From positions 1 to 64,000 of the IMG/VR virus record IMGVR_UViG_3300028008_000005: a stretch of 64,000 bases of DNA, one strand, 5' to 3'. Source of the DNA: a virus. Below are positions 43,762 through 53,334 of the stretch, in pieces (positions within the stretch are counted from its first letter, which is position 1; each line of letters begins with the position of its first letter). A program made the position numbers and the translations under genes. The notes below the pieces were generated by a model. It was not told the DNA's origin and did no database searches. It saw only the letters and a program-made list of their open reading frames with translations.

Positions 43762-43965
43762 ATGCTTATTGAAAATGGTAAAATCGATCCACGCGTTCAC
43801 AATTTACTTAGGAGCATGCTTAATCCTGAAAAATATGGCAACTCAGTAAGCCCTGAGATTCGCGATGAAGTACGGGCATTGCTTGGTATGAATCGAGTAG
43901 AGCAAAGACTATATGCTCCTAATATTAAAAACGTAAAGATAGATCAATTTGGTAATTATTGCTAA
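43762..43965 (+). CDS. hypothetical protein
   Basis: 67 aa (IDPRVHNLLRSMLNPEKYGNSVSPEIRDEVRALLGMNRVEQRLYAPN). Follows the HAD gene by 2 nt. No family recognised. Confidence 0.6.
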   Translation: MLIENGKIDPRVHNLLRSMLNPEKYGNSVSPEIRDEVRALLGMNRVEQRLYAPNIKNVKIDQFGNYC

Positions 43966-44032
43966 CATATTACCAAATATCATAATGTTACATAAGGTAA
44001 CACGTATATATAGTATCGTTAAAGGAAAAAAT

Positions 44033-44416
44033 ATGAAAAAGCTTCTTTTTATAGCTTCATTGTTACCGGGTATTGCTTTAGCTGATGTGGTTGTTGTTGG
44101 TACTACACCGCGTTATGTTACGATATACCAAAAACAATGTGAGGTAAAAGATATCTTTATTCAGAAATCTTCTTCCTCCACCTTAGTTGGCGGGGTGATT
44201 GGTGGTTTGTTAGGACATCAAGTTGGTAACGGATCTGGTAAAACTGCAGCTACAATTGCTGGAGCTATTATAGGTTCTGATATAGCAAATAAGAATTCTG
44301 AACCAAAGCTAATTCAAAGAGAATATTGTACTGAAGTACCTATTCAAGTACAAAAAGGTGAAACAGTTACCTTTGAGTATAAGGGTAGAATATTTAGACA
44401 AACCTTTGACAACTAA
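44033..44416 (+). CDS. secreted glycine-zipper protein
   Basis: 127 aa. Signal peptide MKKLLFIASLLPGIALA followed by a mature domain with a glycine-zipper (LVGGVIGGLLGHQVGNGSGKTAATIAGAIIGSDIAN), as in the 17-kDa surface antigen/SlyB-type family of proteobacterial outer-membrane proteins. No lipobox Cys. AAAGGA sets the ATG at 44033. Probably acquired from a host; could change the envelope of the infected cell or block superinfection, which is inference. Confidence 0.7.
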   Translation: MKKLLFIASLLPGIALADVVVVGTTPRYVTIYQKQCEVKDIFIQKSSSSTLVGGVIGGLLGHQVGNGSGKTAATIAGAIIGSDIANKNSEPKLIQREYCTEVPIQVQKGETVTFEYKGRIFRQTFDN

Positions 44417-44423
44417 GAATTCG

Positions 44424-44478
44424 TTGAAGCATGTAATAGGAAGTTTGGACTCGGGTGCAAATCCCGATAGCTCCACCA
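44424..44478 (+). ncRNA. ssrA: permuted tmRNA, acceptor piece
   Basis: 3' part of a tmRNA located upstream of its 5' part. It contains GAAGCATGT (P2 3' strand), a T-arm TCGGG-TGCAAAT-CCCGA, the acceptor strand TAGCTCC, discriminator A and encoded CCA (476-478). TAGCTCC pairs with GGGGCTA of the coding piece (44560-44566), giving the G3-U70 wobble that alanyl-tRNA synthetase recognises. The 5' end is approximate. Confidence 0.88.
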
Positions 44479-44559
44479 AAAGAACACTGTCGGTGCTGTT
44501 GGGAAGCGCAGATGGACAACACTAGGACGCCGTTCGAATCGGAGCAGTGTTCTTCTGAT
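44479..44559 (+). ncRNA. intervening segment of the permuted tmRNA with tRNA-like minihelix
   Basis: 81 nt between the CCA and the first G of the coding piece. A perfect 10-bp stem joins 44480-44489 to 44545-44554. Inside it a T-arm with a canonical TTCGAAT loop (44533-44539; stem CGCCG/CGGAG, one mismatch) abuts the 7-bp acceptor-like AACACTG/CAGTGTT. A D-arm-like GTGC-TGTTGGGAA-GCGC (44493-44509) is possible. No proper anticodon arm folds, so this is a tRNA-like element, not a tRNA gene. It may guide RNase P/Z cleavage. Confidence 0.65.
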
Positions 44560-44775
44560 GGGGCTATTCATAGATTCGACAGACAACTGAAAGCATGTGG
44601 AGAATAGGTGCGGGAGCTACCTTAAATGCAACAAACTCTATAAATGCAAACGATGAAGCATTTGCTCTAGCCGCATAGGTTAGATGAGGTATGGGCACCG
44701 CCTTATAATCAAACGGGCCTAAAATTCTCACATCAGAGAAACCAAAACTAAATATCCTCACAAGGGATTAATCGG
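44560..44775 (+). ncRNA. ssrA: permuted tmRNA, coding piece with tag ANDEAFALAA
   Basis: 5' part of the tmRNA: acceptor GGGGCTA, then the conserved TAGATTCGACAGAC D-region, AGCATGT (P2), an AGGT/ACCT stem with a GAG/CTC pseudoknot option, and the tag frame. The resume codon is GCA 44646; the tag reads A-N-D-E-A-F-A-L-A-A and ends at TAG 44676-44678. The C-terminal ALAA matches ClpXP/ClpAP degrons. Downstream hairpins (TTCTC/GAGAA, ATCC/GGAT) suggest the 3' end near 44775; this end is approximate. Confidence 0.88.
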
Positions 44776-44791
44776 AGATATAAGAAAGCTA

Positions 44792-44899
44792 ATGAACAAA
44801 AGAGAACTTACCTTTGAGGTAATATGTAATTTATTATTACCTGTAACAACCATGGCATTGATCGTTGTTTTGCCATTTATTACTAGTGGATTAATCTAG
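44792..44899 (+). CDS. 35-residue membrane peptide
   Basis: Starts MNKRELTFEV, then a hydrophobic helix (ICNLLLPVTTMALIVVLPFI). No strong ribosome-binding site, so translation is uncertain. It lies right after the tmRNA and its stop abuts the next -35 box. Confidence 0.4.
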   Translation: MNKRELTFEVICNLLLPVTTMALIVVLPFITSGLI

Positions 44900-47586: not shown

Positions 47587-48171
47587 ATGGCAGAATTAAC
47601 AGATCTATTTAGGAATAAAGAGAGTTTTACTGATAAGCCATTAAGTAGAATGTCAGACTATTATCTGTCTGGCCATTTAGATCGTCCAGAGGAATACATT
47701 GAATGGTTTGATCAAATTCGAAATGCGGGTGCTAACGATGTTATTGTTTTGCACATTAATTGCTTCGGTGGAGATCTTTATACGGCAATCCAATTTATTC
47801 GTGTATTGCAAGAATGCCAAGGTATTGTTGTAGCATCTGTAGAAGGTGCTTGCATGTCAGCTGCGACAATGATCTTTCTACAAGCTGATGAGGTAGAGAT
47901 ATCAAATCACTCTGCGTTTATGTTCCACAACTACTCTGGCGGAACAATCGGCAAGGGCGGGGAAATGATCGATCAGTTAACCTACGAGAGATCATGGTCA
48001 GAGAAACTTCTTAAAGAGGTTTATGCTGACTTTCTAAATGAAAAAGAAATAGAATCAATTCTTAATGGTAAAGATCTTTGGATGTCATCAGATGAGGTTA
48101 CAAAGAGAATGGACAGTAAAGCTAAAAAGATTAATAAGGAAATTTCTAAGAAAAGTAAGGCTATAAAATAG
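47587..48171 (+). CDS. ClpP-like serine protease
   Basis: 194 aa. ClpP/crotonase-like fold: INCFGGDLYTAIQF (the oxyanion GG), catalytic Ser91 in GACMSAATMIF and His114 in SAFMFHNYSGG. The acid residue is not certain. No Clp ATPase is seen in the window, so it may join a host ClpX/ClpA or act alone. A phage tmRNA with an ALAA tag lies 3 kb upstream, and a functional link is possible. The lysine-rich C-terminus is unusual. Confidence 0.8.
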   Translation: MAELTDLFRNKESFTDKPLSRMSDYYLSGHLDRPEEYIEWFDQIRNAGANDVIVLHINCFGGDLYTAIQFIRVLQECQGIVVASVEGACMSAATMIFLQADEVEISNHSAFMFHNYSGGTIGKGGEMIDQLTYERSWSEKLLKEVYADFLNEKEIESILNGKDLWMSSDEVTKRMDSKAKKINKEISKKSKAIK

Positions 48172-50680: not shown

Positions 50681-51976
50681 ATGAGAAAGTTACTTACAAT
50701 GATTACATTTTTTCTTGTTGGCTTTGTTGCTGGCGGAGTTAATGGTCAAACATATACAGAAGAAGTAGCAAGCATTATTAACGAAAACTGCGTGGTCTGT
50801 CACAGAGCAGGCGGCATTGGACCTATGAGCTTTGAAACATATGAGCAAGTAAGACCATGGGCACCACTTATCCAAATGAGAGTGGCTAACCGTGAAATGC
50901 CTCCCTATGCATACGATCATGGAATTGGTATTCAAGACTTGCAAGGTGACTGGCGACTATCACAGGATGACATAGACACTGTTGTTGCGTGGGTCAATGA
51001 AGGATCTCAATACGGCAATCCAGACACAGTATTACAGTCAGTTGACCTAGGCGATCCAGAAGCATGGAGCTTCGAAGGAGACTTTGGAGTACCAGATGCA
51101 ATCATACCAAGTGTAGCAATCGATATTCCGGCAAACGGTAACGACCTATGGCATAAGCATTTAGTACCTACAGGCCTTACTGAAGATCGCTGCATTAAAG
51201 CAGTACAGGTAAAGCCTCGTGGTGATGCAAAAGCAGTAGTGCATCACGCTAACTCCAATGTTGTTATTGACGGAGGTCGTGAAGGTATGCTCACGGAGTA
51301 TGCTATGGGAAAGTGGGGAGAGATCGTCCCAGAGGGAGTATGCAGGCTACTTCCAGGAAACGCAGAAATCAGATGGGATATTCACATGTTCCCGGGTGGA
51401 CTTGGAGCAATGGCACCCGGATCAGTTATCAAAGACAACGTGGTAGAGATTGGTCTTTGGTTATATACCGAAGAGGAAAGCCAAGGATTGAAATACAAAC
51501 AAGATTTGAGTCTGTATCGCCTAGGCAACCAGGACGATATTACGATACCCCCAAATGGTTACTACATGACTCAAGGTTTACACAGTTTTGATCATCCAGT
51601 TAGACTAGATAGTTTTCAACCACATGGACACTTGCGTATGAACGCAGCAAGTTTGGAAATATTCTATCCAGAGACAGGACGCACAGAACAGATTAGCCAA
51701 GTAAGTAATTGGAGTGCAACATGGCATCACAGTCATTTATATGACCCAGATGTAGCACCACTCTTACCAGCAGGCGCAGTGATTGTTCTGAAGCAATGGT
51801 ACGATAACACATCAGACAATCCAAATAACCCAGATCCAGATATGTGGGTAATGGGTGGCTCAAGAACAGGCGATGAGATGACGCACGCGTGGCTTGCTAT
51901 TACGCATCTAGATGACGAAGGATATAATAGGCTAAAAGATGAAAGAAATGAAAGAGTTGAGCTTGCTAATAGATAA
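50681..51976 (+). CDS. secreted cytochrome c / copper type II monooxygenase-like protein (first copy)
   Basis: 431 aa, AGGAGG upstream. Signal peptide ends near NGQ (residues 21-23). The haem-binding site is C37-V-V-C-H41 with a possible axial Met in REMPP (M73). The downstream PHM-like region holds the pattern of copper ligands: H188-H189 and H235 (CuH site), H315-x-H317 and a late Met (CuM site), as in peptidylglycine monooxygenase. Predicted periplasmic redox enzyme; substrate unknown. Extremely unusual for a phage. Its DNA looks more G+C-rich than neighbouring genes. Confidence 0.78.
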   Translation: MRKLLTMITFFLVGFVAGGVNGQTYTEEVASIINENCVVCHRAGGIGPMSFETYEQVRPWAPLIQMRVANREMPPYAYDHGIGIQDLQGDWRLSQDDIDTVVAWVNEGSQYGNPDTVLQSVDLGDPEAWSFEGDFGVPDAIIPSVAIDIPANGNDLWHKHLVPTGLTEDRCIKAVQVKPRGDAKAVVHHANSNVVIDGGREGMLTEYAMGKWGEIVPEGVCRLLPGNAEIRWDIHMFPGGLGAMAPGSVIKDNVVEIGLWLYTEEESQGLKYKQDLSLYRLGNQDDITIPPNGYYMTQGLHSFDHPVRLDSFQPHGHLRMNAASLEIFYPETGRTEQISQVSNWSATWHHSHLYDPDVAPLLPAGAVIVLKQWYDNTSDNPNNPDPDMWVMGGSRTGDEMTHAWLAITHLDDEGYNRLKDERNERVELANR

Positions 51977-52097
51977 TCGCAATAGGTTAGATATAGATAG
52001 GGATTGGGAAGAATACCAAGAACTAACTGAAGAGATCCAACTTTTACAAAATGATTTAGTAACACTATCAATTATGGGAGAAGATTTAAATGAATAA
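51948..52097 (+). CDS. 49-residue acidic coiled-coil protein
   Basis: ATG inside the previous gene's end, stop inside the next gene's start (8-nt overlap). Helical, charged (LLIDNRNRLDIDRDWEEYQELTEEIQLLQNDLVTL). No family recognised; its overlaps suggest a real coupled ORF in the redox cassette. Confidence 0.5.
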   Translation: MKELSLLIDNRNRLDIDRDWEEYQELTEEIQLLQNDLVTLSIMGEDLNE

Positions 52098-53334
52098 AAT
52101 AAACGCTGCGGCAGGAACATTAGGTGTTCTATTGCTAATGCTTGGACTTAGAGCAGAAGCGCATGACGATGTAAAGATCGACTACGCAGAGAACGTAGCC
52201 CCTATCTTTGTAGAACAATGTCAAAGCTGCCACCGTGAAGGTGGTATTGCACCGTGGGCAATGAGTGACTTTAGAATGTTGCAAGCATTCGCCCCTGCAA
52301 TCCGTGAAGCAGTTACAACATTAGAAATGCCACCCGGGCAGATTGATCGCAAATATGCAAAGGATATTATCAATCATCGCACACTCAGTCATACAGAAAT
52401 GGAGACTATTGTACAGTGGATTGATGCAGGCGCTCCTGTCGAAGGTGACAGAGATCCGCTAACAGAAACTGTATACTCAACATCAGAGTGGGTACACGGT
52501 GAGCCTGATATGATTGTCTATGTACCAGCACAAGAAATTCCTGCTGGTCCTTCTGCGATTCCATATCGTTATGTTGGTGTAGACTTAGGACTAACTGAAG
52601 ACAAATGGCTTCGTGGTTCAGAGTTTTTGCCTTCAGAGCCTACAGTAATGCATCACATGCTAAACTCAGTAAGTGTACCGGGAGAGCGTAATGGCAACAT
52701 CTTAGGCACACAAGGTGGCGGACAAGAAGAAATGAACTACGCTAGTGTGAGTGCATATGTACCAGGAGGCGATCCAGAATTTTATGACGAGAACACTGGT
52801 GGTTTGTTAAGAGCAGGTTCAACAGTAAACTTACAGTTACACTACACACCAGACGGCAGAGCAAGAACTGACGAAGCAAGAATTGGTTTGTACTTTCACG
52901 ATGAAGGTGTAGTACCAGAAGAGAGAATGGCAGGCGACTGTGCTTGTATCTTCCCTAACAACTGGACAACTATCCCTGCATTTGATCCTAACTTTGTACA
53001 AACAGCAGAAGTAGTTCTAAAGCAAGATGTAATGCTGCACACATTCTTACCACACATGCACTTCCGTGGCAAGAGTATGAAAGCAACTGCATTCTATCCA
53101 GACGGCACTGTAGAAGAACTAATTGATGTACCAAGATATGAATATGCTTGGCAACTATCATACACGTGGAGAGAGCCTAAGTTCTTACCTGTAGGTACAA
53201 GACTGTTTGTAGAGGGAGCATTTGACAACTCAGCAGAGAATAAAATGAATCCCGATCCTAGCAGAGACGTACCGTGGGGTCAGATGAGCGAAGATGAAAT
53301 GTTCTTTGGAGCATTTACTTGGAAAAACCTATAA
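52090..53334 (+). CDS. secreted cytochrome c / copper type II monooxygenase-like protein (second copy)
   Basis: 414 aa paralogue of the 50.7-kb gene. Signal peptide ends near AEA (residues 22-24). Haem site C44-Q-S-C-H48 with Met80 in LEMPP as likely axial ligand. Copper ligands: H188-H189, H251 (LQLHY), H322-M-H324 and a Met in the [15 protein letters not shown] region. The haem site and HH pair have the same spacing as in its paralogue, but overall similarity is low, so the two may act on different substrates or as a redox pair. Followed 10 nt later by the PqqA-like peptide. Confidence 0.78.

Follow-up and report, generated by a model that had tools for sequence, protein, structure and literature searches.

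A circularly permuted two-piece tmRNA gene in a marine T4-like phage, with a conserved spacer hairpin and a putative nested micropeptide gene in its relatives

Background

The locus described here raises the question of whether a phage carries a working two-piece tmRNA gene of its own, and what is contained in the segment that separates the two pieces. It lies in the window, i.e., the whole stretch of viral DNA analysed (64,000 nt), where a first-pass annotation had placed a circularly permuted tmRNA gene. Two-piece tmRNAs were reported in 2022 in the OM43 phage Melnitz, in Mosig and in dozens of mostly aquatic phages (Buchholz et al., PMC9004378). That study classed 53 of 133 phage tmRNA structures as two-piece, and 50 of the 53 came from marine or aquatic phages; the roles proposed were upkeep of the hijacked machinery or the tagging of host proteins (PMC9004378). 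The tmRNA database holds 79 unique phage sequences (PMC11915505). A review covers the mechanism of two-piece tmRNAs, including RNase P, tRNase Z and the function in Caulobacter (PMC3985003). The occurrence of such an RNA in a phage had thus already been published, and the window gene is a further case of the known phage-borne permuted tmRNA. What is new here is the viral subfamily to which it belongs, a conserved spacer hairpin with exchangeable contents, and a nested micropeptide gene, probable from the sequences, in relatives.

The tmRNA gene and its parts

The only gene called by ARAGORN in the window is a permuted tmRNA (tmRNA*), which extends over positions 44386–44769 and has the tag ANDEAFALAA. 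The Rfam model RF04321 (tmRNA_permuted) is aligned over its whole length at positions 44419–44678 by cmscan, with 97.3 bits (E 1e-17), which is twice the family cut-off of 47. The 3' acceptor half is upstream of the 5' coding half in the sequence itself and in both computed results. Direct reading of the letters shows that all 7 acceptor pairs are formed, with G3-U70 among them, and the encoded CCA, the D-region and the tag noted in the first-pass annotation are also present (Table 1). The same gene is found on a second, independent metagenome contig (L002/L084). A chance match is excluded, since RF04321, ARAGORN and direct reading agree and the gene recurs on this other contig. An Infernal search with Rfam models had been suggested at the outset as a check on a circularly permuted two-piece gene, and with the match to the permuted model that identification stands. 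The proposed 5' bound of 44424 was nearly right but slightly short, as the P2 strand begins at 44419. From the sequence, gene order, covariation, tag frame and spacer hairpin we infer processing, charging, use of SmpB and a benefit to the phage, and the locus is very probably a functional phage-borne permuted tmRNA gene.

Table 1. Positions of the tmRNA gene parts, neighbouring genes and nested micropeptide loci (window positions unless a contig is named)
Feature	Position	Strand	Basis
CDS with glycine-zipper 2TM domain, ending 2 nt before the tmRNA	43949–44416	+	PF05433
Acceptor piece, 5' part; strand pairing with the coding piece (P2)	44419–44446	+	RF04321 alignment; P2 covariation
tRNA-like 3' half (GGAC, T-arm, acceptor 3' strand, A73, CCA)	44447–44478	+	letters; RF04321
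GGAC	44447–44450	+	letters
T-arm	44451–44467	+	letters; stem covaries in relatives
Acceptor 3' strand, UAGCUCC	44468–44474	+	letters
A73	44475	+	letters
Encoded CCA	44476–44478	+	letters
Intervening segment (IVS), 81 nt, noncoding, predicted absent from mature tmRNA	44479–44559	+	no nested ORF
IVS closing stem, 5' strand, AAGAACACTG	44480–44489	+	pair probabilities 0.87–1.0; covariation in viral IVSs
IVS closing stem, 3' strand, CAGTGTTCTT	44545–44554	+	pair probabilities; covariation
UGAU, opposite ACCA in the precursor; predicted RNase P site behind it	44556–44559	+	UGAU in 32/40 viral IVSs
Acceptor 5' strand, GGGGCUA (G3 with U70); predicted 5' end of the coding piece	44560–44566	+	letters; relatives
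D-region motif, GATTCGAC	44573–44580	+	letters; TTCGAC belongs to the tmRNA_permuted consensus
P2 strand of the coding piece (TCGACAG...GAGAAT)	44576–44605	+	P2 pattern matches; covariation
Tag frame, ANDEAFALAA	44646–44675	+	ARAGORN; AND...LAA kept in relatives
Stop codon TAG	44676–44678	+	ARAGORN
Coding piece, 3' part; pseudoknot region per beta_tmRNA model	44679–44730	+	RF01850 alignment, below its cut-off
ORF, 35 aa, single membrane span, directly downstream of the tmRNA	44792–44899	+	counterparts in L003, L004, L005, L006
ClpP-like protease ORF, 3 kb downstream of the tmRNA	47587–48168		PF00574; phrog_1827, ATP-dependent protease
Nested micropeptide loci in relatives (tmRNA IVS)	L150:659–1129; also L197, L206, L228, L321–L436 and others	- (L150)	

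The phage and the neighbouring genes

The window comes from a virus record that is 114,689 bases long and has T4-like genes. Functions of this type in the window are an SbcC/SbcD-like nuclease, a DNA polymerase, a ribonucleotide reductase, PhoH and a single-strand binding protein. The nearest DNA polymerase among phage records is from Phage C48C1 (Kyanoviridae), with 55% identity, and cyanophages come next. The phage is a marine T4-like phage, and the location of the gene in a phage genome is confirmed by the virus record and its T4-like replication genes. A megablast search of 10 kb against GenBank gave no match; in a distant GenBank search, the tmRNA matched only a Klebsiella phage, over a short stretch.

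The region between position 44014 and the tmRNA gene contains no promoter-like and no terminator-like site. Cotranscription with the upstream CDS is likely, as this CDS ends at 44416 and no promoter-like site follows 44014. The small ORF downstream of the tmRNA has no Pfam match and no PHROG match. Two large secreted-looking proteins are encoded further downstream (50681–51976 and 52090–53334); they carry CxxCH motifs close to the N-terminus, match nothing in Pfam or PHROGs, and may be host-derived c-type cytochrome-like proteins.

SmpB was not found in the 114.7-kb record, which may be incomplete; of 14 control genomes, 10 gave a positive result in the same search. The ClpP-like ORF raises the possibility that tagging serves mainly for degradation of host proteins, perhaps through the phage's own ClpP-like protein. 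The tag ends in LAA, and a proteolytic role has been proposed for the Melnitz tmRNA (PMC9004378). Against this, the PHROG matches of the ClpP-like protein include several head maturation proteases, and tagging offers no choice of target, since a stalled ribosome is required. We assign only a very slight probability to a device of this kind, as compared with a tmRNA that functions in ribosome rescue.

Affiliation of the gene

The first-pass annotation considered the tag more beta/gamma-like than alpha-like. The beta model does score higher than the alpha model, but below its own cut-off: RF01850 (beta_tmRNA) gives 69.2 bits against a cut-off of 84 in an end-to-end alignment that reaches 44730, and RF01849 (alpha_tmRNA) gives 50.3 bits against a cut-off of 50, over model positions 40–269 of 355 only. 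The members of the subfamily are also split, with L257 and L258 passing the beta cut-off and L004 and L262 passing the alpha cut-off. A beta or gamma origin is therefore not established by these scores. No match to the standard one-piece model RF00023 is seen in the window, where one best match per clan was kept, and the order of the gene is permuted. A permuted tmRNA of the same subfamily in L257 (about 1104–1322) has ACCG in place of the encoded ACCA.

Cellular genomes were searched with the exact P2 pattern, using one genome per species for 84,980 species. The sole match is a contig from a Halieaceae MAG (L250). This contig and the IMG/VR contig L269 are both 7,902 bases long and have the same match position; the MAG bin has probably taken up a contig of viral origin. 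When 399 genomes of the MAG's phylum were searched by BLAST with the coding piece, that contig was found again, and otherwise short conserved stretches only. The pattern demands an exact P2 match, so that more distant cellular relatives would escape it. In view of the alpha/beta split of its members and of the lack of a cellular source beyond the MAG contig, the window gene is termed a member of a viral subfamily. That no cellular counterpart was found for this subfamily points to phages that maintain trans-translation genes for themselves, beyond acquiring them from the current host.

Conservation of the RNA in relatives

A 30-base P2 pattern matches 26 viral contigs, which gave 15 distinct sequences after removal of duplicates and broken copies. 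Full 7/7 acceptor pairing was the selection criterion of the script; pairing in the T-arm and in P2 was not selected. G3-U70 is invariant in all 15, for which acceptor pairing had been required. Acceptor positions 4–7 vary as pairs in this pairing-selected set (GC/CG, CG/GC/AT, CG/TA/TG and GC/AT, respectively), and here only the pair diversity is informative, because full pairing was required by the script. The stems of the T-arm show paired substitutions across the 15 sequences. The five-pair P2 helix GCATG/CATGT is paired in every one, and in two of them there is a two-sided change to GTAAG/CTTAT. The tags have a constant AND...LAA and a variable middle (ANDEAFALAA, ANDNVYALAA, ANDSVYSLAA, ANDDYYEGLRLAA).

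Comparison of L085 with positions 44419–44560 of the window shows an acceptor piece and spacer in common, with only 2 differences in the 81 nt of the IVS, next to a different tag and 3' half. This is a sign of recombination of tmRNA halves between phages. L087, L113 and L130 have one spacer in common and different bodies.

Two other readings of the gene bear on these data. The gene may be a decaying passenger captured from a host, its function lost. Fast turnover of IVSs and tags would fit such a passenger, as would the sign of recombination in L085, but the paired substitutions in several helices, the invariant G3-U70 and the intact tag among the 15 distinct relatives argue against it, as does the lack of a close cellular source for the subfamily in the P2 scan and BLAST. 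We consider it highly improbable. Alternatively, the phage RNA may act as a decoy, occupying host SmpB or the ribosome and so preventing trans-translation by the host. A precedent is mycobacteriophage DS6A, which encodes little beyond the tRNA-like domain, and tmRNA is inhibited by a molecule similar to it (PMC4131195, PMC11915505); the lack of a found SmpB in the record would also be compatible with this. A decoy, however, has no need for a tag, whereas the window gene and its relatives retain an LAA-ending tag frame, a stop codon and the tRNA-like domain, and it is very unlikely that the RNA acts in this way. A functional tmRNA remains the preferred reading.

The spacer hairpin

In 95 distinct spacers of viral permuted tmRNAs, a set deliberately enriched for one class, lengths vary between 10 and 256 nt. 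A pattern for spacers of 5–35 nt gave 16 matches on viral contigs, with no ARAGORN call among them. The closing stem was examined in 40 distinct noncoding viral IVSs of at least 25 nt, in the register with four free bases at the 3' end. Over nine positions 91% of the pairs are standard. With the partners shuffled the figure is 63%, and the highest value among 10,000 shuffles is 73%; no other register exceeds 64%. The four unpaired 3' bases are UGAU in 32 of the 40 and UAAU in 6. Pair probabilities of the closing stem in the window precursor are given in Table 1. As judged from these sequences, a covarying stem that opposes ACCA to UGAU appears nearly always to begin the viral spacers. Since the four bases face ACCA, the precursor would fold into a single extended hairpin, in which a small internal loop coincides with both processing sites. 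In a sample of one phylum, the permuted tmRNAs of bacteria have the same type of hairpin, with spacers mostly of 10–47 nt, and the spacer hairpin is thus a general property. An unusually long spacer of 115 nt is present in one bacterial permuted tmRNA (L298). Long spacer contents are common in phages.

The frames of the window IVS were read, and no ORF with a start, ribosome-binding site and stop was found, nor a micropeptide ORF. In other viral IVSs two features were seen. The 84-nt IVS of L254 has a possible H-type pseudoknot, GGGGCA/TGCCCC with ACTTCC/GGGAAGT, identified by eye only. One frame of the 98-nt IVS shared by L004, L255 and L273 reads as a zinc-ribbon-like RKCIGCGKDFVLVLDLPQVTHCSYKCLV, with no clear start or stop in the spacer.

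The window IVS was also considered as a tRNA-like RNA or the relic of a tRNA gene, a reading that concerns the spacer alone. By eye, a D-arm-like GTGC-TGTTGGGAA-GCGC is followed by a T-arm-like GCCG-TTCGAAT-CGG in the correct order, an arrangement found in 5 of 60,000 shuffles, and a tRNA-Ala gene has been reported in the IVS of one permuted tmRNA (PMC11915505). RF00005, however, has no match in the window IVS even at E 10, and a purpose-built tRNA model without the anticodon arm scores 7.4 bits, from the T-loop only, against 25–37 bits for real tRNAs in control loci. In energy, a cloverleaf-like fold lies 10 kcal/mol above the best one. The candidate was dropped on the results of RF00005, the fold energies and the purpose-built model, and we regard a tRNA origin of the spacer as unlikely.

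A nested micropeptide gene in the spacers of relatives

The spacers of L150, L197 and L228, loci found without reference to any protein, are 159–177 nt long and have open frames. When the peptide core WSxCADI is searched for as a DNA pattern, at least 120 places match. Among the matches listed (at least 120), 86 are inside a detected permuted tmRNA spacer and represent 50 distinct spacers; nine further listed matches look nested, as judged from their rows, and are at contig ends or have changed flanks. The micropeptide is encoded by the second nested ORF, which reads MKNPLVREVSKWMFKAYILWSICADITLLAGIIYLVFF or a variant among the matches listed and is a membrane micropeptide of 38–47 aa. It is preceded in the spacer by an overlapping mini-ORF, whose ribosome-binding site is within the closing stem. 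AAAGGAG is the 5' strand of this stem and opens the spacer in 84 of the 86 listed cases. In all 86 of the listed cases the stop of the micropeptide ends exactly one base before the coding piece.

The dN/dS of the micropeptide is about 0.09, as determined for 33 distinct ORFs among the matches listed and for the part beyond the overlap with the first mini-ORF. This value implies that the micropeptide is under selection. The surrounding tmRNA was confirmed with Infernal in L150 and L197. No counterpart of the micropeptide was found in PHROGs or in GenBank phages, and in a literature search no description came to light of an ORF that is nested or intervening in a tmRNA. The sequences thus provide good support for the nested micropeptide gene being real.

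In L359, L379, L380, L391 and L377 the ORF pair is directly upstream of the tmRNA, and the spacers there (10–128 nt) are without it. It follows from this position that the pair has moved, either into the spacer or out of it. The IVS of L174 (111 nt) has a different membrane ORF, MKYIFIVIILFGLSLMLIPMIGIIIGVLKSLF, whose stop is the same UGA before the coding piece. In Melnitz (L437, about position 800) a 142-nt spacer has an unannotated frame, MFKWLSKTRLVVITRDYFRERNRK..., which follows GGAG and continues into the coding piece.

One possible interpretation, offered tentatively and with less than even confidence, is that the phage spacer is an exchangeable cargo slot, and that in the nested mini-genes of a large group of viral contigs with Melnitz-like tmRNAs translation competes with excision of the tmRNA from the same transcript. 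The competition is suggested by the ribosome-binding site in the processing helix and by the micropeptide stop one base before the coding piece; at the nested gene it is a guess. The window spacer is a noncoding example of the cargo-slot idea.

Proposed mechanism

For the functional tmRNA, the following course of events is proposed. The upstream gene and the tmRNA would be transcribed as a single precursor, in which stacking of the acceptor stem (44560–44566/44468–44474), the ACCA/UGAU internal loop and the 10-bp closing stem yields a single extended hairpin. The 5' end at G44560 would arise by cleavage behind UGAU, carried out by host RNase P. Another host nuclease would free the CCA end at 44478, the 81-nt spacer would be discarded, and the two pieces would be held together by the acceptor stem and P2. 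The host alanyl-tRNA synthetase would then charge the RNA with alanine by way of G3-U70, and host SmpB, which would be needed given that none was found in the phage record, would deliver it to stalled ribosomes. Rescued peptides would carry A+ANDEAFALAA and be directed to a ClpXP-type protease. The likely benefit is the recycling of ribosomes during destruction of host transcripts by the phage. A putative role in host takeover is plausible.

In the precursor the spacer would thus combine a conserved stem with freely swapped contents, and in the relatives a probable protein-coding gene is situated inside the gene for a ribosome-rescue RNA. Both the role of the spacer and the coupling of translation and RNA processing in it become testable questions.

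Comparison with known systems

The cultured phages Melnitz (Methylophilales), Mosig and HTVC008M (Pelagibacter) are, like the window phage, T4-like marine myophages with a permuted tmRNA and a precursor layout that contains an IVS. Their tags and IVSs differ from those of the window. The genes of Melnitz and HTVC008M fit the alpha model, whereas the window gene fits the beta model better, below its cut-off. The Melnitz gene (L437) is followed by a glutamine riboswitch, and the window gene is not. In the viral tmRNAs that have the nested gene, a Shine-Dalgarno sequence at the IVS start is followed by the conserved membrane ORF that ends in the UGA before the coding piece; the window IVS has no ORF of this type.

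Among more distant systems, the tmRNA genes carried by Bxz1-type mycobacteriophages and by Bacillus phage G are, unlike the window gene, not known to be permuted. They are like it in being phage-borne ssrA genes (PMC4131195). The tmRNA of mycobacteriophage DS6A consists of the tRNA-like domain only; it resembles the window gene in that this domain is phage-borne and differs from it in having no tag. With respect to the permuted family RF04321 (Sandia tmRNA database, PMC11915505), the window gene is set apart by an IVS of 81 nt, compared with 10–47 nt in most of the bacterial permuted tmRNAs examined, one of which has 115 nt.
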